From the NCBI GenBank assembly GCA_000309945.1, contig CM001633.1, positions 4,165,912-4,229,911 of the forward strand: DNA of 64,000 bases, given 5' to 3'. Positions 15,508 to 27,175 of the stretch are shown one piece after another; positions within the stretch are counted from its first letter, which is position 1; every line of letters starts with the position of its first letter. Source of the stretch: Leptolyngbyaceae cyanobacterium JSC-12 (GTDB lineage: Bacteria; Cyanobacteriota; Cyanobacteriia; Leptolyngbyales; Leptolyngbyaceae). The notes under the pieces are model-generated. The model did not search any database, had not been told where the DNA came from, and saw only the letters and a program-made list of their open reading frames with translations. A program made the translations under genes and the position numbers.

Positions 15508-16558
15508 CAGGAGTTACGCAGTTGAGAAAAAAGGGGAGGTGCGGTAGAACCAAGAAATGAATCCACCCAAAGTCAACGAATACGACTACATCAACTTTCT
15601 GATTGCGGCGCAGAAGGCCTATAGCTGCACGGAAGCCGAACGAGTGCAACCGGAGTCTGATAATGCCGCTGCCCATGACGCAATTACTCGGTTGTTGCAT
15701 CGACTGGAGCCATCGACTCAGCAGTTGTGGCAAGAAGTGCAGTCGCAAGTACGGTTGCACCAGGGAATTTTAGTGGTAGATGACTCAACGCTCGACAAGT
15801 GGTATGCCAAGAAGATGGAATTGGTGACTCGGCACTGGTCGGGCAAGCATGGACGGGTAGTGCAAGGCATCAACCTAATTACGCTGCTATGGAGTGAGGG
15901 AGACCGTCACCTTCCGTTGGACTATCGATTTTACGAAAAGGGTGTCGATGGCTCAACCAAAAACGACCACTTCCGCTCGATGCTTGAAACTGCCAAGGAA
16001 CGAGGGTTTGCGCCCCGATGTGTGGTGTTTGATAGTTGGTACAGTAGCTTGGAGAACCTTAAGTTGATTCGAGATTATGGTTGGATTTGGTTGACTCGAC
16101 TCAAGCGCAATCGGCAGGTCAACCCGGACAATACAGGCAATCGCCCTCTGCATAAGGTCGTGCTTGCGGCGACTGGCACGGTGCTCCATCTCAAAGGTTA
16201 TGGGTTCATCAAAGTGTTCAAGATGGTTGCCCCAAACGGTGACATTGATTACTGGGCAACCAATGACCTGGGGATGGGTGAGCTACAACGGCTGCAATTT
16301 GCCGAGGTTGGTTGGGCAATTGAGGAGTACCATCGCGGACTCAAACAGTGCTGTGGCGTTGAACGGGCGCAGGTTCGCTCAAGTCGTGCCCAGCGCAATC
16401 ATGTGGGTTTAGCCATTCGCGCTTTCCTGCGCTTAGAGGTGCACATGTGGACGACAGGTATCAGTTGGTACGAAGCGAAAGCGGCGATCGTCCGGGATGC
16501 CATTCGCTCCTTTTTAGCGGCTCCTCGTTTCATCCTCAATCCAACTGCGTAATCCCTG
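15508..16558 (+). mobile_element. Intact insertion sequence (1051 bp), IS4/IS701-type
   Basis: Terminal inverted repeats are CAGGAGTTACGCAGTTGA at 15508-15525 and, as reverse complement of 16541-16558, CAGGGATTACGCAGTTGG, with 15 of 18 positions matching. The element is flanked by a 5-bp direct repeat GAAGT (15503-15507 and 16559-16563), the target duplication. It carries a single complete transposase gene whose stop codon lies in the right repeat. The perfect duplication and intact ORF indicate a recent insertion. The family name is tentative; a 5-bp duplication is not the commonest size for IS701. Confidence 0.9.
15557..16552 (+). CDS. DDE transposase, IS4/IS701-like
   Basis: A 331-residue transposase with an RNase H-like catalytic core. 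The candidate acidic triad is visible: the Asp pair of LVVDDSTLDKWY, the Asp of VVFDSWYSSLENL and the Glu of WAIEEYHRGLKQCCG, followed by the basic VERAQVRSS segment typical of the family's C-terminal region. There is no frameshift or internal stop. The TAA at 16550-16552 is inside the right terminal repeat, so the coding region fills almost the entire element. Confidence 0.88.
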   Translation: MNPPKVNEYDYINFLIAAQKAYSCTEAERVQPESDNAAAHDAITRLLHRLEPSTQQLWQEVQSQVRLHQGILVVDDSTLDKWYAKKMELVTRHWSGKHGRVVQGINLITLLWSEGDRHLPLDYRFYEKGVDGSTKNDHFRSMLETAKERGFAPRCVVFDSWYSSLENLKLIRDYGWIWLTRLKRNRQVNPDNTGNRPLHKVVLAATGTVLHLKGYGFIKVFKMVAPNGDIDYWATNDLGMGELQRLQFAEVGWAIEEYHRGLKQCCGVERAQVRSSRAQRNHVGLAIRAFLRLEVHMWTTGISWYEAKAAIVRDAIRSFLAAPRFILNPTA

Positions 16559-18021: not shown

Positions 18022-18441
18022 ATGTTTATTCCTATGACAATGCAACCAGCCACTAGCCTCTACTCTAAGATTCAAGTGCTGCTAGTCGAGGATAATGAAA
18101 TTAACCGATTATTGATGTGTGACTATCTTCGCTACTACGGATATCGCGTGGTTAGCCTGGTAGATGGAGAGCAATTTTTTGAAACTCTGGCTTGTGTTCA
18201 GCCAAATATCATTTTATTAGATCTAAAACTACGAGAAACTAATGGGTATCAAATCTTAGAAAATCTGCAAAAGAGTTCGGAATATCGTGATATTCCAGTG
18301 ATTGTTATTTCTGGTTTAGCCTTTCAAAAGGATAAAAAACGTGCCTTTGAGTTGGGGGCACGTCATTACCTTGTGAAACCCATTAACCTGAATGAGTTAA
18401 ATAAGCTGATTCAAGAAGAAGTGTTGCGCTCTCGTTCTTGA
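18022..18441 (+). CDS. Single-domain response regulator (REC)
   Basis: A 139-residue CheY-like protein with no output domain. The acidic pocket (LVEDN, about 22-25), the phosphorylation site Asp67 in ILLDLKL, the Ser of VISG and the Lys of LVKP are all present. It converges on the HNOBA histidine kinase gene about 560 bp away and could be its phosphotransfer partner. No other receiver domain occurs in this neighbourhood. The 3' end overlaps a small minus-strand ORF. Confidence 0.9.
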   Translation: MFIPMTMQPATSLYSKIQVLLVEDNEINRLLMCDYLRYYGYRVVSLVDGEQFFETLACVQPNIILLDLKLRETNGYQILENLQKSSEYRDIPVIVISGLAFQKDKKRAFELGARHYLVKPINLNELNKLIQEEVLRSRS

Positions 18442-18602
18442 TCCAAAAACTCTTCAACCACGCGAGTCAGACTTTGCAACGCCTCTGCAGTTTCCGCTTT
18501 CTGTATCTCCATCTGATTCATTAGGAGATTCATCGTCTGTAAATGATCCAGCGTGATAGCAAGAGAGGCTTTAAACTGCTGTTCAAACTCGTCAATTGTC
18601 AT
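18411..18602 (-). CDS. Small acidic coiled-coil protein, overlapping the regulator antisense
   Basis: A 63-residue frame from ATG 18602, MTIDEFEQQFKASL..., almost entirely helical with an acidic charge pattern (EIQKAETAEALQSLTRVVEEFLDQERER) suggesting a coiled coil. AGAGGGG precedes the ATG at usable spacing. It overlaps the last 31 bp of the response regulator on the opposite strand and lies at the distal end of the H-NOX gene group. The function is unknown. Its composition and ribosome site argue for a real gene, but the overlap lowers confidence. Confidence 0.5.
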   Translation of the reverse strand: MTIDEFEQQFKASLAITLDHLQTMNLLMNQMEIQKAETAEALQSLTRVVEEFLDQERERNTSS

Positions 18603-18998
18603 CTCCAACCCCTCTAAAATTCAGTGTAACTGTTTATACTTCCAGCATAGTGACTGAAACAGGCGATCGGGTGAAGAGATATTAAAGTAAAAGTCCTACT
18701 ATCTGAGGTTCTCTTGAGTTTTTCAAAACCTATTCTACGAATTTCCTCGCAAGTTAAACATAATTTTTATGCTGAGACATGTATAGCTTTTAAATAGCGT
18801 AGTCTTGCACCTATTTACCAAATACTGAGACTCAGTATCTCAGAGATCATTGATTTGAATTATGGTAATCATATCCATTTCTTCACTGACTTTATAGTCG
18901 GTAGTCTTAAGCGATCGCACCACTGAAGCTTTGAACAATATGGATTGTTTGAAAGCAGCAAGTGAGCGATCGCAAAAACAATCAGCTCACTTGTAAGC
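18603..18998. other. Intergenic region (396 bp) with an 8-bp-arm palindrome
   Basis: AT-rich spacer between the end of the HNOBA kinase and the small ORF. At 18822-18838 ATACTGAG, A and CTCAGTAT form a perfect inverted repeat, either a symmetrical protein site or a short hairpin. No T-run follows. No gene was recognised. Confidence 0.45.
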
Positions 18999-20435
18999 TT
19001 ATGATGCCAGCCTTTCCAGGTGTGTCTGATATTGGCGGAGTGGAATCTCGATCCAAAATTCGGCTCCCAGCCCTGGTTCAGATTCGCACCGCAGTATGCC
19101 GCCGTGCTTCTCAGCAATAATCTGATAACTGATTGAGAGTCCCAAGCCTGTTCCTTTTCCAACTGGCTTAGTGGTGAAAAATGGGTCGAATAATCGTTCT
19201 TTGACTGCCTGCGTCATTCCCGGTCCATTGTCTGCAATTCGGATGATTGCATGAGTCCCGCCACGAACCTCAGTAGTAATTGTAATTTTGCTAGGATTGC
19301 GGCGAATCTCCATCATCGATCGCTGAGAATCATAACTATGTAATGCATCAATTGCATTACTCAGGAGATTCATAAAAACCTGATTCAATTGCCCAACAAA
19401 GCACTCAACTAACGGAAGATTTCCATACTGTTTCACTATTTCGATTGGGGGATGCTCTACTTTTGATCTCAATTGGTTTTGCAAAATGAGTAACGTGCTA
19501 TCAATTCCCTCATGAATATCAACTGCTTTCATTTCTGCCTCATCTAATCGGGAGAAATTCCTCAGAGATAGCACAATCTGACGGATGCGATCAGCTCCTA
19601 CCTTCATCGATGAAAGTAATTTAGGCAAATCTTCCAACAAAAAATCCAAATCAATCGTTTCAATATGTCTTTCAATTTCTGGATTGGGATTTGGATAACA
19701 CTGTCTATAAAGATACAAAAGCCCTAACAAATCCTGAGTATACTTATTGGCATAGTCCAGATTACCGTAGATAAAATTCACAGGATTATTAATTTCATGA
19801 GCAACCCCAGCTACCAACTGACCCAAGCTTGACATTTTCTCAGTTTGAATCAATTGAGTTTGAGTTTGCTGTAATTCAATCAATGCTTGTTGGAGTTTTG
19901 CTGCTTGCGCTTCTGCAATTTCAGCTAAGTTTTCCTTAATTTGCAATGCGCTGCGTAACTCTACTTGCTGTGCTCTCAACTCCTCTGTCAGCTTCTTTGT
20001 ATCTGCCAGGGCTGCATTTTTAGCTTGTAGCAAGAATAGAAAATCTACAATAGGATCGTGCGTCGCAAAGTCTTTTAATTTAAGTCCCAGAGGAGCAAGG
20101 CTAGCGGTATCTGTAACCCAGGGCGTTCCCAGGAAAAATATGACATCCTGCTCTTCGACATACATCATCTGACCTTTGAGTTGCATCCCATTGTGGAATG
20201 ACTCCAGCATGAACAATGAGCGAGATTGCTTTCGAATTTGGTCAAAATCAAGTTCAATGCTAGGGCGATTGATTTGAAAATGGTGTTCAAACTGGCTACC
20301 AACTAGTTCGGTAACAGTAATGCGCTGTAATACTTCCCCAGCTTGCAACACATTCAGATCGCGATTAAAGACAAAATGAAATGGAAACGCAATTGAGAAT
20401 AGCTGTGGGGGTAAACAAAGATAGGGAGAAACCAT
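18999..20435 (-). CDS. HNOBA-domain sensor histidine kinase
   Basis: A 478-residue kinase without transmembrane helices. Residues about 12-150 form an HNOBA-type PAS-like domain (FPFHFVFNRDLNVLQAGEVLQ through FLGTPWVTDTASL), the domain that pairs with H-NOX proteins. A coiled coil follows (about 158-215). HisKA contains GVAHEINNPVNFIYGNL with the phospho-accepting His, and HATPase_c has RIADNGPGM and GKGTGLGLS. Its ATG is 3 bp after the H-NOX stop, so the two are co-translated. H-NOX proteins are known to control partner kinases in NO signalling; the same is inferred here. The neighbouring GGDEF-EAL protein carries a closely similar N-terminal domain. Confidence 0.9.
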   Translation of the reverse strand: MVSPYLCLPPQLFSIAFPFHFVFNRDLNVLQAGEVLQRITVTELVGSQFEHHFQINRPSIELDFDQIRKQSRSLFMLESFHNGMQLKGQMMYVEEQDVIFFLGTPWVTDTASLAPLGLKLKDFATHDPIVDFLFLLQAKNAALADTKKLTEELRAQQVELRSALQIKENLAEIAEAQAAKLQQALIELQQTQTQLIQTEKMSSLGQLVAGVAHEINNPVNFIYGNLDYANKYTQDLLGLLYLYRQCYPNPNPEIERHIETIDLDFLLEDLPKLLSSMKVGADRIRQIVLSLRNFSRLDEAEMKAVDIHEGIDSTLLILQNQLRSKVEHPPIEIVKQYGNLPLVECFVGQLNQVFMNLLSNAIDALHSYDSQRSMMEIRRNPSKITITTEVRGGTHAIIRIADNGPGMTQAVKERLFDPFFTTKPVGKGTGLGLSISYQIIAEKHGGILRCESEPGLGAEFWIEIPLRQYQTHLERLAS

Positions 20436-20438
20436 GAC

Positions 20439-20993
20439 TCATTCAGATTGCTTGTATTTGATTGAAAATTCATCGTGATCCGCACCCTCCTCTCGACTCT
20501 GAATTTGAGTCACCTCAACCTCGGTATCAAATCGAGTTCCCAGTCCTTTAACCAGTCCTATGACCATTGGAGCTAAACCTTCTCGACTGGAATGGTAATG
20601 CAGTCGGAGAGATTCTTCACCTTGATGTGTACAGTCAAAGGATGGGGGTTTGAGCTGAGGAAAAATCACTCCTACACGAGCATGAAGATTATCAAGATTT
20701 TCTAAAAACTCTGGTAAGTTATCACCGCTCATTTCCATCATTTCACCGTAACCTTCTTGAGCAGTGTATTTGACCCAGAATTCTCCAAATGCTTGCATAA
20801 TTTCCGAGGTAGATAAGCCTAAAACTGCACTTGCAGCGTTGACTAATTTATGGGTAACGTCATCGGGATACCCTTCCATGCTGATGAAACTATCAACTTC
20901 TAGATCAGCTTTTTGCTTGATTTCTTTCCAGGTTGCTTCGCCAAAGTATTTGCATACCATGTCCTCAATCGCTTTATTGACTAATCCGTACAT
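20439..20993 (-). CDS. H-NOX heme-based nitric-oxide sensor
   Basis: A 184-residue stand-alone H-NOX protein starting [13 protein letters not shown], a standard family start. The proximal heme ligand is His104 ([10 protein letters not shown]). The porphyrin-propionate motif YxSxR is Tyr133-Ser135-Arg137, and the Pro of LKPPSF is present. The position five residues after that Arg is Pro142, not the distal Tyr found in the O2-binding Thermoanaerobacter protein. This suggests an NO sensor that excludes O2, by family analogy. It is complete and lies between two HNOBA proteins, 3 bp from the kinase and about 90 bp from the GGDEF-EAL gene. Confidence 0.92.
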
Positions 20994-21083
20994 AGCCCCT
21001 CCAAAGAATGCTGTAATTGCGGTAGTCTTCAGTATTTCCGCTTTAATCTCAAGATTCCCACTTTTCTCTCTGTACCAAACAAA

Positions 21084-23855
21084 TTAAATAATAAATTTTG
21101 TTGCAAGAAAACTCTCAGCCGTCTTACTGTCTAAGGGTTTCGAGAAGAAATATCCTTGTCCACTTTCACATTGCAATTCCTGGAGGCGGGCAAATTGTTC
21201 GACCGTTTCAACTCCTTCTGCCACCGCGTCCATACCTAAACTACGAGCAAGCATAACAACCGTGCGGATGATTTCTAACTTCTCTACATCAGTATCTACG
21301 CTTTGAATAAATGAGCGATCGATCTTGAGTGTACTGATAGGAAAACGATTCAAATAACTTAAAGAGGAATACCCAGTGCCAAAATCATCCATTGACAACT
21401 GAATTCCTAATGCTTGAAGCTGTAATAAACTAGCAGTTGTAGATTCAACATTATCCATCAAAATACTTTCCGTAATTTCTAGTTTCAAGTTACTGGCGGA
21501 AAGTCCGGTTGATTGCAAAATCTGCTGAATTTGAGTTGCAAAGTTTGGTTGGGCGAATTGCTTGCTATAGATATTGACATTGATAGTCAGGGTGCTAGCA
21601 GAAGGAAATTCCTGCTGCCAACGGTGCATTTGCCAACAAGCCTCCCTCAACACCCAGTCACCTAATGGAATAATCAACCCAGTTTCTTCTGCGACTGGAA
21701 TAAACTCACCTGGAGCGATCAACCCGCGTTCTGGATGGCACCAGCGGACAAGGGCTTCAAAGCCGGTGATTTCCTGGCTTTTTAAGGATACGATTGGCTG
21801 ATAGTGCAGATGAAATTCTTGACGTTCAAGTGCTCGGCGTAAATCAGTTTCTAGTTGAAGAAGGGCAACCGCCCGCACATGCATCGCGGTGTCAAAGATT
21901 TGATACTGAGATTTCCCTTTCCCTTTGGCGTGATACATTGCGGTATCTGCATCACGCAGCAGATCTTGGGGATGCTCATACCCGGTAGTACTGAGAGCAA
22001 TCCCAATGCTAGTGCTGGCAAAGATTTCGTGTCTGCCCAGTTTAAATGGAAGCGTCAACTCCTTTTGGAGTCGCTCTGCAATTTGGGTAGCGTATTGAGC
22101 ATCTTGAATGCCTTCGAGCAAAATGGCAAACTCGTCACCTCCTAACCGTGCAATCAGGTCATTCCGCCGCAAAGAGGCTCCCAGCCTGCGGGAAATCGCA
22201 ATCAGGAGTTGGTCGCCAACTGTGTGACCAAGACTGTCGTTGATAACCTTAAAGCGATCCAGATCTAGAAAAAGTACGGCAAATAAGTAGTCTGGCTGTT
22301 GCTTGGTACGGGCGATCGCCTGCTCTAAACGATCCGTAAACAGTGCCCGATTGGCTAAACCTGTTAGTCCATCATGCAGCGCATCATGCAGTAGCTGCTC
22401 TTCTACCTGCTTGCGTTCAGAAATATCGCGGCAGACGATGACTCCCCCTTTAGGAATCCCATTCTTATCTTTGAGAGGTCTTCCTGTTACAGTCACCCAA
22501 ATGCCCTCAGGAGCTTGCGCATGGCGCACAAACATTTCAACATCGGTAACTTCTTCACCTCGAATAGAGCGCTCTAATGGCAAATCTCTAGTGTCAAATG
22601 GAGTAACACGATCTGAGCGATAGAGATTCATGGTTTGTGAACAGTGATTTGCCACTAGATGGGTTGCTTGACTTCCAAACATCCGCTCTGCTGCTGGATT
22701 AAAAACCAGGAAATTTCTGTTTTCGTCTGCAACAATCACAGCATCACCCATGCTATCCAGAATGGATTTGAGACTTTCGGAAATTTCTGTTTGCTTTACC
22801 AGGGCAGTTTCGATTTGTTTCCGTTGAATAAATTGACCAATCTTGATACCGATGTCAGTCATCATTTCCTGCAAGCTGTCATCAGGCTGGCAGGGTTTAT
22901 GACTAAAAAACTCTAATACTCCAATCACTTCAGTTCCATTTTGAATAGGTAGTCCAAAACCACCGCATAGATGGGTTGCGATCGCGTGGAGTCTGCGTGG
23001 CGAATTAGAATCTTGAGTAATATCTTCAATCCAAATCGGTTGCCGTTGATGCCAAACACAACCAGCTAGCCCAATTCCCACTGGCAAGGTTAACACCCGA
23101 TTTAGTTGCTCAAATTCCCTGAAGTGCTCTGGGAAAGCCGTCCAAACTTCATGACACTTGAGTTCTCTCGCCAACGGATCAACTATCCACAGCACTCCCA
23201 CTTGCCAGTCTAGAGCTGTGCAGATTGCCTCCAACAACTTGACGGACGCTTCACTGAAGGTTGCAGACTCAGCCAGAATGTGAGTCACAGTATACAGAGC
23301 CGCCAGTTTACGATTCATTTTGCGCAATTCTGCCCGCTGCTCAGTCAGTTCATCGGTCAGTTTCTTCGCATCCGATAGGGCAGTGTTTTGGGCTTGCAGT
23401 AAAAACAGAAAATCAACGACTGGGTCATGAATTGCAAAATCACTAAGAGTCAAGCCGTAGGATTTTAACGATGCAATATCCGTGACCCAGGGAGAACATA
23501 GAAAAAAGATAGCTTCTGGTTGTTCTACATAAACCATCTGACCTTTAAGCTTCATGCGATTATGCAGAGATTCCAATAGGAATAGCGATCGCGTCCGCTT
23601 ACGAATCTGAGCAAACTCAACTTGAATATTAGGTCTATTAATTTGAAAATGTTGCTCAAGTTGACTACCAACTGTCAACTCAGGATAGATTCGTTGTAAA
23701 ACTTCTCCTATTTGAAGAATTTTGTGATTCCGATCAAAGACTAAATGAAATGGAAAAATATCTGTGAATAAGTCAGGAATAGCTTTAAAATAAGACAAAG
23801 ACTGAAAAACTTTCCAATGAGAAGGACTGGATAATGAAGTAATTGCACCAACCAT
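21084..23855 (-). CDS. HNOBA-GAF-PAS-GGDEF-EAL cyclic-di-GMP enzyme
   Basis: A 923-residue soluble multidomain protein. The order is an HNOBA-type domain (about 25-165), coiled coil, GAF (190-340), PAS (360-480), GGDEF (490-650) and EAL (660-910). The cyclase motif RLGGDEFAIL is intact. The phosphodiesterase domain keeps EALVRW, EITES, DDFGTGYSSL, LKIDRSF and AEGVET, so both activities are possible. ATG 23855 is preferred to a GTG at 23870. The shared HNOBA domain suggests that the adjacent H-NOX controls c-di-GMP turnover as well as the kinase, an arrangement known in other bacteria for H-NOX with DGC/PDE partners. Confidence 0.9.
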   Translation of the reverse strand: MVGAITSLSSPSHWKVFQSLSYFKAIPDLFTDIFPFHLVFDRNHKILQIGEVLQRIYPELTVGSQLEQHFQINRPNIQVEFAQIRKRTRSLFLLESLHNRMKLKGQMVYVEQPEAIFFLCSPWVTDIASLKSYGLTLSDFAIHDPVVDFLFLLQAQNTALSDAKKLTDELTEQRAELRKMNRKLAALYTVTHILAESATFSEASVKLLEAICTALDWQVGVLWIVDPLARELKCHEVWTAFPEHFREFEQLNRVLTLPVGIGLAGCVWHQRQPIWIEDITQDSNSPRRLHAIATHLCGGFGLPIQNGTEVIGVLEFFSHKPCQPDDSLQEMMTDIGIKIGQFIQRKQIETALVKQTEISESLKSILDSMGDAVIVADENRNFLVFNPAAERMFGSQATHLVANHCSQTMNLYRSDRVTPFDTRDLPLERSIRGEEVTDVEMFVRHAQAPEGIWVTVTGRPLKDKNGIPKGGVIVCRDISERKQVEEQLLHDALHDGLTGLANRALFTDRLEQAIARTKQQPDYLFAVLFLDLDRFKVINDSLGHTVGDQLLIAISRRLGASLRRNDLIARLGGDEFAILLEGIQDAQYATQIAERLQKELTLPFKLGRHEIFASTSIGIALSTTGYEHPQDLLRDADTAMYHAKGKGKSQYQIFDTAMHVRAVALLQLETDLRRALERQEFHLHYQPIVSLKSQEITGFEALVRWCHPERGLIAPGEFIPVAEETGLIIPLGDWVLREACWQMHRWQQEFPSASTLTINVNIYSKQFAQPNFATQIQQILQSTGLSASNLKLEITESILMDNVESTTASLLQLQALGIQLSMDDFGTGYSSLSYLNRFPISTLKIDRSFIQSVDTDVEKLEIIRTVVMLARSLGMDAVAEGVETVEQFARLQELQCESGQGYFFSKPLDSKTAESFLATKFII

Positions 23856-23976
23856 TGTTCTCTTGCACACTCGCTACAGCAATGATTAAAAGGTTGCGTG
23901 AGAATCATAAAATCTTGCATTGGGGCGATGTCATTGCTTCGCCCCAGCAGATTCATCAGTGGTAAACCTGTTTCGA

Positions 23977-24705
23977 TCACGCCGAAACAAGTTGGAGTGA
24001 ATATGTAAAGTAGTTAAGTACAGATGTTTGGCGCAAAATTCCGTCAAAGAAACATACGCGAGCATTCAAAGCATCAAGAATCGCACGGTTCACATCCATT
24101 GCAAGTTCCGTAGTGGTAATGCGGGGCTCAATTAAGGTAGCCAAATGAGCTGCATGACTGTCATCTACATCAATGTGAACATCAAAAAAGCTTAATGCTT
24201 CTTTGCTCAAAGCCGCTGCTCCAACAATTCCCTGTTGCAGCTGAGTATAAAGGGTGTTGACAATGCCTTCTGAAGCAAAACAGACTGCTCCCAGTGCTGC
24301 TAGGTAGTTGTATTGATGCGGTAAGTTCAGGTAGGTGTCGATTAAATAGCGAGTTTCTGGCTCAGTTGGTAATGATGACAGTGTCTCATCATCAATTCCC
24401 AGTGCTCGTGTGAATCGACGAAATAGCTCAGGATGAGCCAACTCTGGGTTTCCCTGTCCCATTTCATCGAACAAGTTTTCTAAAATCACTCGTTGCGCTT
24501 GCTCATCAGGACAGCAGGATAAAATACCTGCTAATATCCGATTAAATTCCTTGGAGAATTTGTACATCTGGACAGCCAGAACCTGAACTTCTGGCAATGT
24601 CAGTTGCGTAGTTCGGCAACGGATCAGAAACTCATGATTCCAAAGTGGATGATTGGCAGTCACTTCGTAGAAGGATTGCATGACAGAAGAAGAGGGTGGT
24701 TTCAT
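23977..24705 (-). CDS. CADD-like heme-oxygenase-fold di-iron oxidase
   Basis: A 242-residue helical protein of the TenA/PqqC/CADD-like fold, probably DUF3865-like. A full set of iron ligands can be read: Glu81 (FDEMG), His91 (LAHPELF), Glu146 (ASEGIV) and His177-x3-Asp181-x2-His184 (FFDVHIDVDDSHAAH). This matches the E-H-E-H-D-H pattern of heme-oxygenase-like non-heme iron oxidases. That family includes natural-product N-oxygenases, decarboxylating oxidases and the pABA-forming CADD. The residue before Glu146 is Ser, where CADD has a functional Tyr, so CADD chemistry is not assured. The start overlaps the methyltransferase stop (ATGA). Confidence 0.82.
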   Translation of the reverse strand: MKPPSSSVMQSFYEVTANHPLWNHEFLIRCRTTQLTLPEVQVLAVQMYKFSKEFNRILAGILSCCPDEQAQRVILENLFDEMGQGNPELAHPELFRRFTRALGIDDETLSSLPTEPETRYLIDTYLNLPHQYNYLAALGAVCFASEGIVNTLYTQLQQGIVGAAALSKEALSFFDVHIDVDDSHAAHLATLIEPRITTTELAMDVNRAILDALNARVCFFDGILRQTSVLNYFTYSLQLVSA

Positions 24706-25466
24706 CGCGATATCTGTATGGCTAAGTGAAGTGGATAGTCAACAAGGGGCTTGAAAAATGATTCATCAAGTTCTACATGGTCTGGTTGCACCTTGAGTTC
24801 TCGTAGTGTTGGCATGGAGCTAAACCCAGCAGCTTTAAGAGCGTCAAAATAGTCTTCCAGGGTCTTGTGAACTAATTGCACGTCTAGCCAAGAGCCATCC
24901 CGCTTCCAAATTCGTCCTGGAAATTGGCGATCGCGTTGGCTAAAGTAACCTGCTCCTTCCACTTGAAAATAGAAAGGATATTCTGCTGGGCGCATGTAGG
25001 GAAATGCTGGGTGCGGCACACTGAAAATGAATTGTCCACCCGGTTGGAGAATTCGAGCAACTTCCGCCATACACTGCCGAGTTTGCTCGATGGTTAAATA
25101 GTTGAACAAGAAGACTGCAACAACTAAGTCAAGTTCGCGATCGCCAAACTGGGATAGATTCGTTGCACAACCAACTTCGTAGTGAATACCGAGGCAATCG
25201 TCTGCTTCCTGCGATCGGGCAGCAGCAATCATACCCTGGGAAAGATCCATCCCAAATACTTGTCTAGCCCCCCGACGCCGCAATTCTCGACTGCAATAGC
25301 CCTCACCACATCCCAAATCAAGCACTCGCAGCCCAGACACTGGTTCACACAAGGCTAAGATTGCCGGACGCGCAGTAAAATCTGAGAGCGAACTTGGTTC
25401 TCCACGTACCCATTTTGAAGCTGTCTTGTCATATAGATCTCGCGTTGAGTAAGTATTGGTTGACAT
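24702..25466 (-). CDS. Class I SAM-dependent methyltransferase
   Basis: A 254-residue methyltransferase starting MSTNTYSTRDLYDKTASKWV. The SAM-binding motif I is VLDLGCGEGYCSREL. The Asp of FGMDLSQGM binds the ribose, and motif post-I is DLVVAVFLFNYL, followed by ARILQPGGQFIFSVPHP. Substrate unknown; small molecules are usual for this branch. A TTG at 25478 is a poorer start than the ATG at 25466. It overlaps the downstream oxidase by 4 bp, so the two are translationally coupled and probably act on the same pathway. Confidence 0.85.
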   Translation of the reverse strand: MSTNTYSTRDLYDKTASKWVRGEPSSLSDFTARPAILALCEPVSGLRVLDLGCGEGYCSRELRRRGARQVFGMDLSQGMIAAARSQEADDCLGIHYEVGCATNLSQFGDRELDLVVAVFLFNYLTIEQTRQCMAEVARILQPGGQFIFSVPHPAFPYMRPAEYPFYFQVEGAGYFSQRDRQFPGRIWKRDGSWLDVQLVHKTLEDYFDALKAAGFSSMPTLRELKVQPDHVELDESFFKPLVDYPLHLAIQISR

Positions 25467-25564
25467 AGTGTTGCTCAATCAATGAACAGAGTTGATCAAA
25501 GCAATGCGCTTGCTCTGATCTAAGAGACAAGTTCAACCGGTTGACTGAACTTGCATTCTATGAA

Positions 25565-26569
25565 TTAGGACAATTCAAACAGCGACACGGTTCGGTAGTC
25601 TCTGGTATAGAGAGGAACTGAACCAAGGTTGTTCTTTTTGGCTCTTGCTTCTTCCACAGATTCATCAAAGATAATTAGTGTGTCAGTGCCAACTTTTAAC
25701 CACTCTTCGTAGGGCACACTCATATCTGCTTCAACGCCACCAGTCATAGGAGGAATCATGGCTCGATAGGCGTCGTTGAACTTACGACGGAAGCGAAAAT
25801 CAACAGAAATCCGCACCCCTTCGGAAACGCGTCGAACGGTTTGATGTAAACCACGGGCATCGTTAAAGTACATCGTGCCATGTTGTAATTTGGTGTTGTC
25901 GTAAGAAACCACCATTGGAATATCTTTGCCTTCGTTAAAATCCGACATCACCCGCATGGCTGACAGTTCCATCTCACGGGGCATTTCTCCTGCCTCGATT
26001 GTAATGTTTGCGATGTCGCCAAATAAAGGCAGCACAACGACTGTGGCGTCTGGTGCAACACCTGCCCAAACATCGCTATGGCGTTTAGTGCTCGTGAACG
26101 GAAGTTGCAATGCATCAGGGTTCATTTTGCCGTAGACAATACGGAGATTAACTGGCAAATCTACTGCATCAATTAGGTCATTCGCACCGAGTTGCTGGAA
26201 GGCGTTGGCAACGCTTTTCTGGAACAAGTTGAATTCCAGGATATGCTCGCGTTTAGGCATTAGTAACCCTGTGCCCAGGTAGTTGGGTAGGGTACCTCTA
26301 ACTTCCAGTAGTCTTCCTACGATTTCTGCTTCAGATAGGATAACAGGGCTATTGAGACAGGATGAAATATACCCTGCAGCAGCTATCTGAATTTGCTGAA
26401 ACAACTCAGGCTTGAGGGTATGCTCAAAGAGCAGTCGATAGTCGTGGCGGGTTGCAATTCGGGATGCTAACTCGTTAAAAAGACGATCGCCCATTTGAGA
26501 AAATGCGATCGCTTGTTCCTGTGTGAATTGCTGATGTAACTGTGTTCGTTCAATCAGTCTTTCAACCAT
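25565..26569 (-). CDS. Putative Fe(II)/2-oxoglutarate-type oxygenase
   Basis: A 334-residue protein I do not recognise by name. It contains a pattern typical of the cupin-fold Fe(II)/2-oxoglutarate oxygenases: His164-x-Asp166 (KRHSDVW), then His242 (GLHQTVRR) and Arg253 eleven residues later (GVRISVDF). A beta-rich core (ATVVVLPLFGD, GTMYFND) lies between them. The N-terminal 100 residues are helical. ATG 26569 has AGGAG at ideal spacing. It is the first gene of the minus-strand group leading to the methyltransferase, di-iron oxidase and NO-sensor genes. The oxygenase call is inference from motif geometry. Confidence 0.6.
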   Translation of the reverse strand: MVERLIERTQLHQQFTQEQAIAFSQMGDRLFNELASRIATRHDYRLLFEHTLKPELFQQIQIAAAGYISSCLNSPVILSEAEIVGRLLEVRGTLPNYLGTGLLMPKREHILEFNLFQKSVANAFQQLGANDLIDAVDLPVNLRIVYGKMNPDALQLPFTSTKRHSDVWAGVAPDATVVVLPLFGDIANITIEAGEMPREMELSAMRVMSDFNEGKDIPMVVSYDNTKLQHGTMYFNDARGLHQTVRRVSEGVRISVDFRFRRKFNDAYRAMIPPMTGGVEADMSVPYEEWLKVGTDTLIIFDESVEEARAKKNNLGSVPLYTRDYRTVSLFELS

Positions 26570-27175
26570 TCTTTTACTCCTAAACTCCTACACTCATTAA
26601 GTGACTAGATCATTTGCATACAAATGACAATCACAATGATTTCTTATCTATTGAACCTATAGTTCAACTAAACTTTAGTTACTTGTTTGTCAATGATCAA
26701 ATGAATCATTCTGATGCAGAAAGGCTAGTTATTCTTGTCTTGATTAAGAGATTGAATTGATTTGTAATTCAATCAATTCAGATTACTTGGTTAATTTTGT
26801 TTTAACAGTAAAATTTTTCTGATGCAACTGTTGAGAATACAGAGATAACACTGTGCCACTTAGGAAGTTAATTCTTGATAAATTATCTCTCTAACTCCTT
26901 ATAGGCAAGGCTCTGAGGCTATCCTCAATTTTTTATTGGGCAACTTGATGGTGACTTTATGGTTTTTCTTTAAGCACAAAAAAGCTTTCTTGACCGAAAG
27001 TTTATAGAGTTCTCTGTGTATCTAATGAGCTAACTTTTGGGACTTTCAGCAATATAAATGATGTAGCTTCAGTAATTTAGCCGACTCTAGCCTAAACCCA
27101 AAGCTAAGATCAGCCAAATAGCCGAAAAATTATCCATGTCTGAGTATGAAGTAGGCTTACGAGAATGCGCTTCAC
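26570..27175 (-). promoter_or_regulatory. 606-bp AT-rich leader with stacked inverted repeats
   Basis: No gene seen. Four inverted repeats lie 80-205 bp upstream of the oxygenase start: TTGAAC/GTTCAA with 5-bp spacer (26651-26667), AACTAAA/TTTAGTT with 1-bp spacer (26666-26680), AATGAT/ATCATT with 7-bp spacer (26692-26710) and GATTGAATT/AATTCAATC with 7-bp spacer (26750-26774). Farther up, a TGAGG-CTAT-CCTCA hairpin followed by ATTTTTT (26914-26934, plus strand) looks like a small intrinsic terminator with no obvious gene before it. Confidence 0.5.

Follow-up and report, generated by a model that had tools for sequence, protein, structure and literature searches.

A conserved association of cyanobacterial H-NOX with a methyltransferase, a haem-oxygenase-like dimetal oxidase and a predicted Fe(II)/2-oxoglutarate oxygenase

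We find that three metabolic enzymes of Leptolyngbyaceae cyanobacterium JSC-12, a predicted Fe(II)/2-oxoglutarate (2OG) oxygenase (OXY), a class I SAM-dependent methyltransferase (MT) and a haem-oxygenase-like dimetal oxidase (HDO), are encoded as a cassette beside an H-NOX sensor gene, and that this association is real and conserved. The linkage survives rearrangement of gene order and strand, and the unity of the cassette is seen in a gene that fuses HDO to OXY (L039), in one genus where a TauD-type enzyme replaces OXY (L065–L068) and in a relic (L045). On balance, we lean toward the reading that the cassette is an H-NOX-governed, NO-responsive biosynthetic unit that modifies an amino-acid-like substrate.

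In the analysed window (64,000 nucleotides; contig CM001633.1, positions 4,165,912–4,229,911), open reading frame positions and Pfam matches bear out the six-gene minus-strand group of the initial annotation, at 18999–26569. It comprises OXY (25565–26569; 334 aa, assigned by motif and predicted fold), MT (24702–25478; Methyltransf_25/11), HDO (23977–24705; Haem_oxygenas_2, PF14518, with a 3-His/3-carboxylate ligand set), an HNOBA-GAF-PAS-GGDEF-EAL protein (21084–23870), a stand-alone H-NOX (20439–20993; HNOB) and an HNOBA histidine kinase (18999–20435; HNOBA-HisKA-HATPase_c). The MT stop and HDO start overlap as ATGA, as had been noted earlier (24702–24705, minus strand). MT starts with TTG at 25478, with an ATG at 25466, leaving 86 bp to OXY (98 bp counted from the ATG); the other gaps are 106 bp between HDO and the EAL protein, 90 bp between the EAL protein and H-NOX, and 3 bp between H-NOX and the kinase. 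A consensus scan, which cyanobacterial promoters may escape, found no minus-strand promoter- or terminator-like site inside these gaps; promoter-like matches numbered 7, below the mean of 18.4 for shuffled sequences. A weak terminator-like stem, a consensus match only, follows the kinase (18825–18843, minus strand).

On the sensory side, the H-NOX matches the HNOB profile over positions 1–162 of 163 (195.8 bits) and carries His104 and YHSSR at 133–137, which we take to be the proximal histidine and the YxSxR motif. Its closest solved relative is Alr2278 (Ns H-NOX; E = 4e-77). HNOBA domains are present in both the kinase and the GGDEF-EAL protein, and the HEINNP phospho-acceptor box of the kinase (beginning at residue 213) and the GGDEF and EAL motifs are intact. 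Earlier examples of H-NOX action on kinases and on GGDEF/EAL partners are given in excerpts of PMC8846402, and the combination of an HNOBA kinase with an HNOBA c-di-GMP partner recalls the HnoX/HnoK system of Shewanella oneidensis and SwH-NOX/SwDGC of S. woodyi described there. Compared with these systems and with Ns H-NOX, the JSC-12 locus adds the three-enzyme metabolic cassette, and in the partial texts that our literature search covered, we found no published description of H-NOX tied to such a cassette.

Among the 38 related loci with H-NOX, 37 have the kinase downstream of the sensor gene; L029 holds only its start, at a contig end, and in L039 an HNOBA hybrid kinase takes the place of the usual one. 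The HNOBA-GAF-PAS-GGDEF-EAL protein is a facultative partner, found at cassette loci in the JSC-12 window, L003, L004, L070 and L071 (L078 and L079 are repeat records of L004 and L003), with similar genes following H-NOX in three loci that have no cassette (L051, L061 and L064). The convergent single-domain REC gene that had been grouped with the locus is present (18022–18441, plus strand; Pfam Response_reg), but it probably lies outside the conserved unit, because it is unmatched in L004 and L070, near relatives with sequence extending beyond the kinase. No response regulator conserved across loci was found, and only in the genus of L065–L068 is the kinase followed by a conserved REC gene.

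The association extends beyond this genome, which clearly defeats the first refuting condition of the initial annotation, that the triad and the H-NOX genes adjoin each other only here: H-NOX lies within about 3 kb of MT-HDO in 38 of 42 related loci, all of them from close relatives. A class-wide genome-neighbourhood survey, of the kind proposed in the initial annotation, detected HDO in 16 of 291 genomes, every one with H-NOX 591–4176 bp away (within 4.2 kb), and OXY in 13, likewise all with H-NOX. In a family sample, H-NOX was present in 24 of 24 HDO genomes versus 19 of 102 genomes without HDO; the two genes are 594–1101 bp apart in 21 of the 24, and the remaining 3 also possess an H-NOX gene. 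The samples share three HDO genomes (G107, G129 and G283), and named loci overlap with the genomes (for example, L003/L079, L004/L078 and L041/L069). Fisher p values for co-occurrence were 2e-15 and 2e-14, which overstate independence because the genomes are kin. HDO was thus accompanied by H-NOX in every genome searched for both, while H-NOX is common without the cassette: in the class sample, 26 of the 42 genomes with H-NOX lack HDO, and the surroundings of 20 of 29 cassette-free H-NOX genes were inspected. NO synthase was considered as a partner of the cassette and rejected: its oxygenase domain (PF02898) was found nowhere in the JSC-12 genome and scored above cut-off in 13 of the 291 genomes, including just 1 of the 16 with HDO.

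Inherited synteny bears on how these counts are read. In 25–26 of the 42 loci the block sits downstream of an apcE-A-B-C-like group, with an ftsW-like gene following in 25 (gene names assigned by eye), and because the block keeps one genomic position, many of the loci may stem from a single event. The cassette could then have landed once beside H-NOX and stayed there with no functional coupling, which we consider very unlikely given that linkage holds in several families despite differences in gene order, strand and flanking sequence, that the cassette has been gained or lost repeatedly beside H-NOX, and that genomes with MT-HDO elsewhere still possess H-NOX. On the H-NOX tree (56 of 74 rows, near-copies removed), cassette presence changes about 9 times, at least 5 of them forced by well-supported branches.

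Gene arrangement varies among these loci. OXY is in line in the JSC-12 window, L003, L004, L070 and L074 and divergent from MT-HDO in 33 of the 42 loci and in L071–L073; in L065–L068 MT-HDO is itself divergent from H-NOX and the kinase. MT adjoins HDO in 42 of 42, with a transposase-like gene intervening in L042. In loci without the EAL gene, HDO and H-NOX are mostly 103–415 bp apart, and in L039 the fused gene is separated from H-NOX by 33 bp. Because of the divergent OXY genes and this spacing, a single operon spanning all parts is plausible only for loci with OXY in line, such as that of JSC-12. In the divergent OXY-MT region, NtcA-like sites (GTA-N8-TAC) occurred in 7 of 33 loci and are not conserved; the sequence AAATYAACA, taken from two conserved blocks of this region, was present in only 4 of 24 upstream stretches (ahead of OXY in L072 and L005 and ahead of MT in L005 and L028).

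Fusion, replacement and loss also mark the cassette. L039 encodes HDO and OXY in one gene, and in L065–L068 OXY is missing and a TauD-family 2OG oxygenase gene stands beside MT-HDO, with the proteins of the four loci sharing at least 78% identity with the L065 protein, from which an HTD motif and a Pfam match were read. The relic L045 retains OXY and the C-terminal part of HDO next to H-NOX. In 4 of the 42 loci (L035, L038, L042 and L043), MT-HDO lies by a DapA-like gene away from H-NOX; H-NOX is encoded elsewhere in these genomes, in which no match to OXY was found, and on the MT-HDO tree (40 rows, near-copies removed) this arrangement forms one derived clade. OXY was found in none of the five genomes whose MT-HDO or HDO sits away from H-NOX. 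Separately, an HDO-cupin gene adjoins H-NOX in L047, a pairing that is probably coincidental because, of the four other genomes with close matches to this gene, the class search detected no H-NOX in three (G170, G189 and G010), and in the fourth (G190, matching the HDO part only) H-NOX is far away.

The earlier reading of HDO as a DUF3865/CADD-like di-iron oxidase holds for the enzyme class, while the Pfam match is to PF14518 and not DUF3865, and the score against TIGR04305 (the CADD family) is 90.1 bits, compared with a cut-off of 200. The predicted model (pLDDT 88.9) has a haem-oxygenase-like seven-helix fold with Z of 18–26 to haem-oxygenase-fold structures among 50 matches listed, and the six ligand residues of the 3-His/3-carboxylate set (E81, H91, E146, H177, D181 and H184) are invariant in 26 sequences. 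Among the matches listed, CADD ranks first by fold (Z 26.1), ahead of HrmI (24.2) and BesC (22.6), and sequence profiles place CADD at 72 bits, BesC at 57 and HrmI at 35. In the E81-to-H91 loop, HDO aligns without gaps to HrmI and with gaps to BesC and CADD.

The proximity to CADD raises a folate-pathway role, in which HDO would be a self-sacrificing pABA synthase of the CADD/NePabS type and its neighbourhood incidental. We rejected this assignment as extremely improbable, because HDO has Leu in both places where CADD has its sacrificial Tyr and Lys (alignment read by eye), and a second HDO encoded in the same genome (L002) bears HPFYVAW and VATTKIDGL, which match the sequence contexts of these two residues in NePabS given in excerpts of PMC11965152. 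One of the Leu residues, L27, is invariant in the 26 sequences. Related HDOs perform varied chemistry, from N-oxygenation by HrmI to C-C cleavage by BesC and further reactions in others.

The proposal that OXY is a Fe(II)/2OG oxygenase is supported by an HxD...H...R motif, H164xD166...H242...R253, that is invariant in 31 sequences, and by a predicted 2OG-oxygenase-like fold. H164, D166 and H242 are presumably the metal ligands and R253 presumably binds 2OG. The model has a mean pLDDT of 72.9 and a pTM of 0.80, falling below a pLDDT of 50 in segments 156–168 and 244–249 at the metal site; with this model, the fold matches listed are all Fe/2OG-type oxygenases by title, the highest Z being 9.4, with an rmsd of 3.6 over 167 residues. 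VIA-align and Foldseek lists singled out no 2OG subfamily, Z values being tied across many families. Neither Pfam nor NCBIfam gave a match to OXY at E 0.001, and beyond the cyanobacterial class it had no significant relative in plasmid records or in the PDB by sequence and profile search; OXY thus represents a predicted iron-enzyme family that has no family model. For MT, the best solved relatives include ToxA and other enzymes that, from their molecule names, we take to be N-methyltransferases.

In the NO-responsive biosynthetic reading that we favour, NO, as the probable physiological ligand, would bind at the predicted haem of H-NOX, which would in turn change the activity of the histidine kinase through its HNOBA domain and, in the JSC-12 lineage, may also alter the dual c-di-GMP enzyme in the same way. 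This output might determine the timing of cassette production or use. MT would methylate, probably at a nitrogen atom, a small substrate resembling an amino acid, whose methylated form HDO (using a dimetal site and O2) and OXY (Fe/2OG) could then oxidise, by analogy to HrmI/HrmJ and BelK/BelL, where, according to the partial text of PMC10764440, an HDO and then a 2OG enzyme act in sequence on L-lysine. The end product may be a small signal or a protective metabolite under NO-related conditions.

The HrmI/HrmJ and BelK/BelL systems share the pairing of an HDO with a 2OG-type oxygenase, and the HDO model superposes on HrmI over 222 residues with an rmsd of 2.6. They differ in that HDO is only ~21% identical to HrmI, so that resemblance to these lysine N-oxygenases is one of predicted fold and loop, and the JSC-12 gene group has no NRPS or ATP-grasp gene and has in addition the methyltransferase and the association with H-NOX. 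BesC, which acts with BesD toward 4-chloro-allylglycine, shares the HDO fold and is the second characterised family by profile, but it is ~21% identical to HDO with a shorter metal-site loop. The fold matches of OXY include lysine halogenases and hydroxylases of the BesD type. Such halogenases are not known to carry the Asp of HxD, whereas OXY retains it.

A different pathway logic is suggested by SznE and SznF of streptozotocin biosynthesis. SznE is a methyltransferase, and the cupin domain of SznF binds iron. In the SznF reaction, as presented in excerpts of PMC13108848, HDO and cupin domains on one chain turn an N-methylated arginine into an N-nitroso compound, recalling MT with HDO and OXY and the fusion in L039. 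HDO and OXY might then N-oxidise a methylated amino acid to an NO-releasing or NO-mimicking nitroso, nitro or related compound, or to NO itself without NO synthase, to be sensed by the adjacent H-NOX. The second place of the N-oxygenase HrmI in the fold ranking, the gapless loop, the constant company of H-NOX and the lack of NO synthase in JSC-12 and in 15 of the 16 HDO genomes are consistent with this scheme, which we nonetheless judge unlikely. SznF is a remote match (E about 0.2) with a 3H/4C site and a cupin; in HDO the six 3H/3C ligands were identified, and JSC-12 HDO has no cupin by Pfam. Moreover, profiles rank CADD and BesC over HrmI, full co-occurrence is equally expected from mere regulation of the cassette by H-NOX, and no NO-releasing product is known. 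The complete version of this scheme, a closed NO-synthase-independent circuit in which MT, HDO and OXY would yield an N-oxidised NO source or mimic from an N-methylated amino acid and the adjacent H-NOX would read it to set kinase and c-di-GMP output, we consider quite unlikely.

A role in handling NO stress would also fit control by H-NOX and the patchy distribution of the cassette. In that case H-NOX would induce the cassette to repair, detoxify or recycle an NO-damaged metabolite, such as a nitrosated amine or amino acid, by degradation and not synthesis. The TauD-type enzyme has a weak similarity to dioxygenases of trimethylated amines (36–38 bits, far under cut-offs) that would suit such a role. 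We hold it to be decidedly unlikely, as a methyltransferase is odd in a degradative set, the eight proteins scanned with Pfam include no flavohaemoglobin or other known NO-detoxifying protein, and reviewed HDOs are for the most part biosynthetic, in excerpts of PMC13108848.

Cyanobacterial H-NOX has served widely as a structural model for the animal NO sensor, with 22 PDB entries for sequences named Alr2278, yet the literature found, in partial text, gives no settled target for it, and excerpts of PMC6963936 cite the question of whether it senses NO or acts as a redox switch. The H-NOX-linked cassette is a direct, testable output candidate. In the samples searched, HDO and OXY never appeared without H-NOX, which gives an initial clue to what this sensor controls and points to a small pathway with a product that could be looked for. 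If that product were a source of NO, the signal would have an NO-synthase-independent origin, and if it were both made and sensed by the locus, bacteria would have an NO-type signal whose dedicated non-haem-iron source and sensor are encoded side by side.

The window's genome is a single contig of 5.53 Mb, and gene positions and Pfam matches in the window confirmed the minus-strand gene group proposed in the initial annotation. In transcription order it comprises a cassette of a predicted Fe(II)/2OG oxygenase (OXY, 26569-25565, minus), a SAM methyltransferase (MT, 25478-24702, minus) and a haem-oxygenase-like dimetal oxidase (HDO, 24705-23977, minus), followed by an HNOBA-GAF-PAS-GGDEF-EAL protein (23870-21084, minus), the stand-alone putative NO sensor H-NOX (20993-20439, minus), whose closest solved relative is Alr2278, and an HNOBA histidine kinase (20435-18999, minus). 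The ATGA overlap claimed for the cassette's middle members indeed joins the MT and HDO genes, and the REC gene said to converge on the group is present in the window (18022-18441, plus), with no match in the related loci L004 or L070. A gene judged by eye to be transposase-like (15557-16552, plus) precedes the REC gene by ~1.5 kb, and an aldo-keto-reductase-like gene occupies the interval. A block upstream of OXY at about 26790-26846, CTCTGTATT.TCAACAGTTG...ACTGTTAAAACAAA, also recognisable by eye in loci L003 and L004, is a possible regulatory site.

In one draw of 291 genomes from the class, we found HDO in 16 (cut-off E <= 1e-25, weakest match 7.7e-88), H-NOX (HNOB) in 42 (45 genes) and OXY in 13 (cut-off E <= 1e-4, weakest match 2.8e-142). 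Each of the 16 HDO genes shared its contig with an H-NOX gene 591-4176 bp away; H-NOX was likewise present in every one of the 13 OXY genomes, of which 12 also had HDO. The dependence of the cassette on H-NOX has one direction, because 26 of the 42 H-NOX genomes lacked HDO. A second draw, of 126 genomes from one family, contained HDO in 24 and H-NOX in 43: every HDO genome carried H-NOX, at 594-1101 bp in 21, and H-NOX occurred in 19 of the 102 genomes without HDO. Fisher tests gave p = 2e-15 for the class and 2e-14 for the family, values that overstate the case because the genomes are related. An H-NOX tree built from 56 sequences shows cassette state changing ~9 times (16.7 in shuffles), and well-supported branches force at least 5 of these changes; a linkage that survives rearrangement and gain or loss is better evidence than the Fisher values.

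Querying one genome per species (84,980 species) with HDO yielded 42 related loci, cyanobacterial by their record titles, as are the named HDO relatives. MT adjoins HDO in all 42, counting L042, where a transposase-like gene (L042:7219-8799) intervenes and HDO is without its N-terminal part. H-NOX is present in 38 loci and OXY in 36, the exceptions for OXY being L035, L038, L042, L043, L027 (cut by a contig end) and L041 (genome G182), an assembly that carries OXY on a different contig. Of the 38 loci with H-NOX, 37 have an HNOBA kinase after it. The remaining one is L039, where a single 558-residue open reading frame encodes both HDO and OXY and the next genes are H-NOX and an HNOBA hybrid kinase that takes the place of the usual one. 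Arrangements vary, with OXY in line, OXY divergent, or MT-HDO divergent from H-NOX-kinase. By eye, an apcA-/apcC-like group lies upstream of the cassette and H-NOX in 26 loci (L005 and 25 others), 25 with an apcE-like gene, and in 25 of the HDO-related loci the block is followed by an ftsW-like gene. The cassette is undescribed in the portions covered of the open-access H-NOX literature, including PMC9510103, PMC6963936, PMC9500659 and PMC8846402. The protein classes are all known except the OXY family, and the association of H-NOX with the three-enzyme cassette is, as far as we have seen, new.

Genome searches found no OXY in L065-L068, four genomes from a single genus. There, MT-HDO has a TauD-family gene on its downstream side, and H-NOX and the kinase are divergent; the family match and HTD motif were read on the L065 protein, to which those of L066-L068 are 78-82% identical. 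This supports the OXY assignment, because a second, unrelated 2OG oxygenase occupies the same setting. A single-domain REC gene follows the HNOBA kinase in this genus (L065:13869-14264, L066:3299-3697, L067:6597-6995, L068:8570-8965; proteins 79-95% identical to that of L065) and is a candidate partner regulator there. L035, L038, L042 and L043, which an MT+HDO tree groups as a single derived clade nested among H-NOX-linked Nostocales (support 100/100), have MT-HDO beside a DapA-like gene (family match read on the L035 protein), with cytochrome oxidase genes, named by eye, near it in the first three. Their genomes gave no OXY match and carry H-NOX elsewhere, beside an HNOBA-GGDEF-EAL-like protein. 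MT-HDO with the aldolase gene is possibly a variant pathway and may offer a clue to the substrate. What remains beside H-NOX in L045, OXY and HDO's C-terminal third, is a decayed cassette. In L046, genes sized like apcE, apcA and apcB precede an apcC-like gene, then H-NOX and the kinase, with the cassette absent; its nearest relative on the H-NOX tree has the cassette. The c-di-GMP gene accompanies the cassette in the window, L003, L004, L070 and L071, similar genes adjoin H-NOX at loci without it, and the gene is facultative to cassette loci.

OXY residues H164-x-D166, H242 and R253 are invariant among 31 sequences; in its predicted fold (pLDDT 72.9) the metal-site segments are poorly predicted, and the structures listed as matches carry titles of Fe/2OG-type oxygenases (highest Z 9.4). 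MT is close to ToxA and other solved relatives that we take, from their molecule names, to be N-methyltransferases, which suggests that it methylates nitrogen. The 3H/3C ligands of HDO (E81, H91, E146, H177, D181, H184) are invariant among 26 sequences. Its profile scores were 72 bits for CADD, 68 for another pABA synthase, 57 for BesC, 35 for HrmI and a remote 14 for SznF, and its predicted structure (pLDDT 88.9) matched CADD (Z 26.1), HrmI (24.2), PqqC (23.6) and BesC (22.6) among the matches listed. The E81-H91 loop gives a gap-free alignment with the N-oxygenase HrmI, and its alignments with BesC and CADD need gaps; we treat this as a lead only. Sequence rejects HDO as a pABA synthase: both sacrificial positions, as given in PMC11965152, are Leu, and a second HDO has both contexts. 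That protein, from the same genome (L002:1465-2169; G000:C1 about 1255891-1256514), carries HPFYVAW and VATTKIDGL, matching the Tyr and Lys contexts reported there for NePabS, and is probably the genuine pABA synthase. L047:4267-5424 encodes an HDO fused to a C-terminal cupin, an SznF-like layout, beside and divergent from H-NOX and its kinase; none of its close matches in four other genomes is near H-NOX.

The initial annotation had speculated that the cassette's product could yield or mimic NO and be sensed by the H-NOX of the same locus. The resemblance of MT and HDO with an iron beta-barrel enzyme to the streptozotocin pathway (PMC13108848) and the cassette's dependence on H-NOX both favour such a loop, but SznF is only a remote match to HDO and plain regulation of the cassette by H-NOX predicts the same co-occurrence; we consider the loop unlikely. 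For HDO-2OG pairs there is precedent in HrmI/HrmJ and BelK/BelL, which, according to PMC10764440, take lysine through a nitro stage to a nitrocyclopropyl amino acid, known pairs working sequentially on a free amino acid. H-NOX proteins govern kinases and c-di-GMP enzymes (PMC8846402 and PMC9500659). The linkage of H-NOX to the cassette is observed and we infer the direction of control: H-NOX would be the NO switch, and the cassette enzymes would form a biosynthetic pathway with a putative substrate and product. Joining these two precedents, we suggest that the locus most likely encodes a small biosynthetic pathway controlled by an NO-sensing switch.
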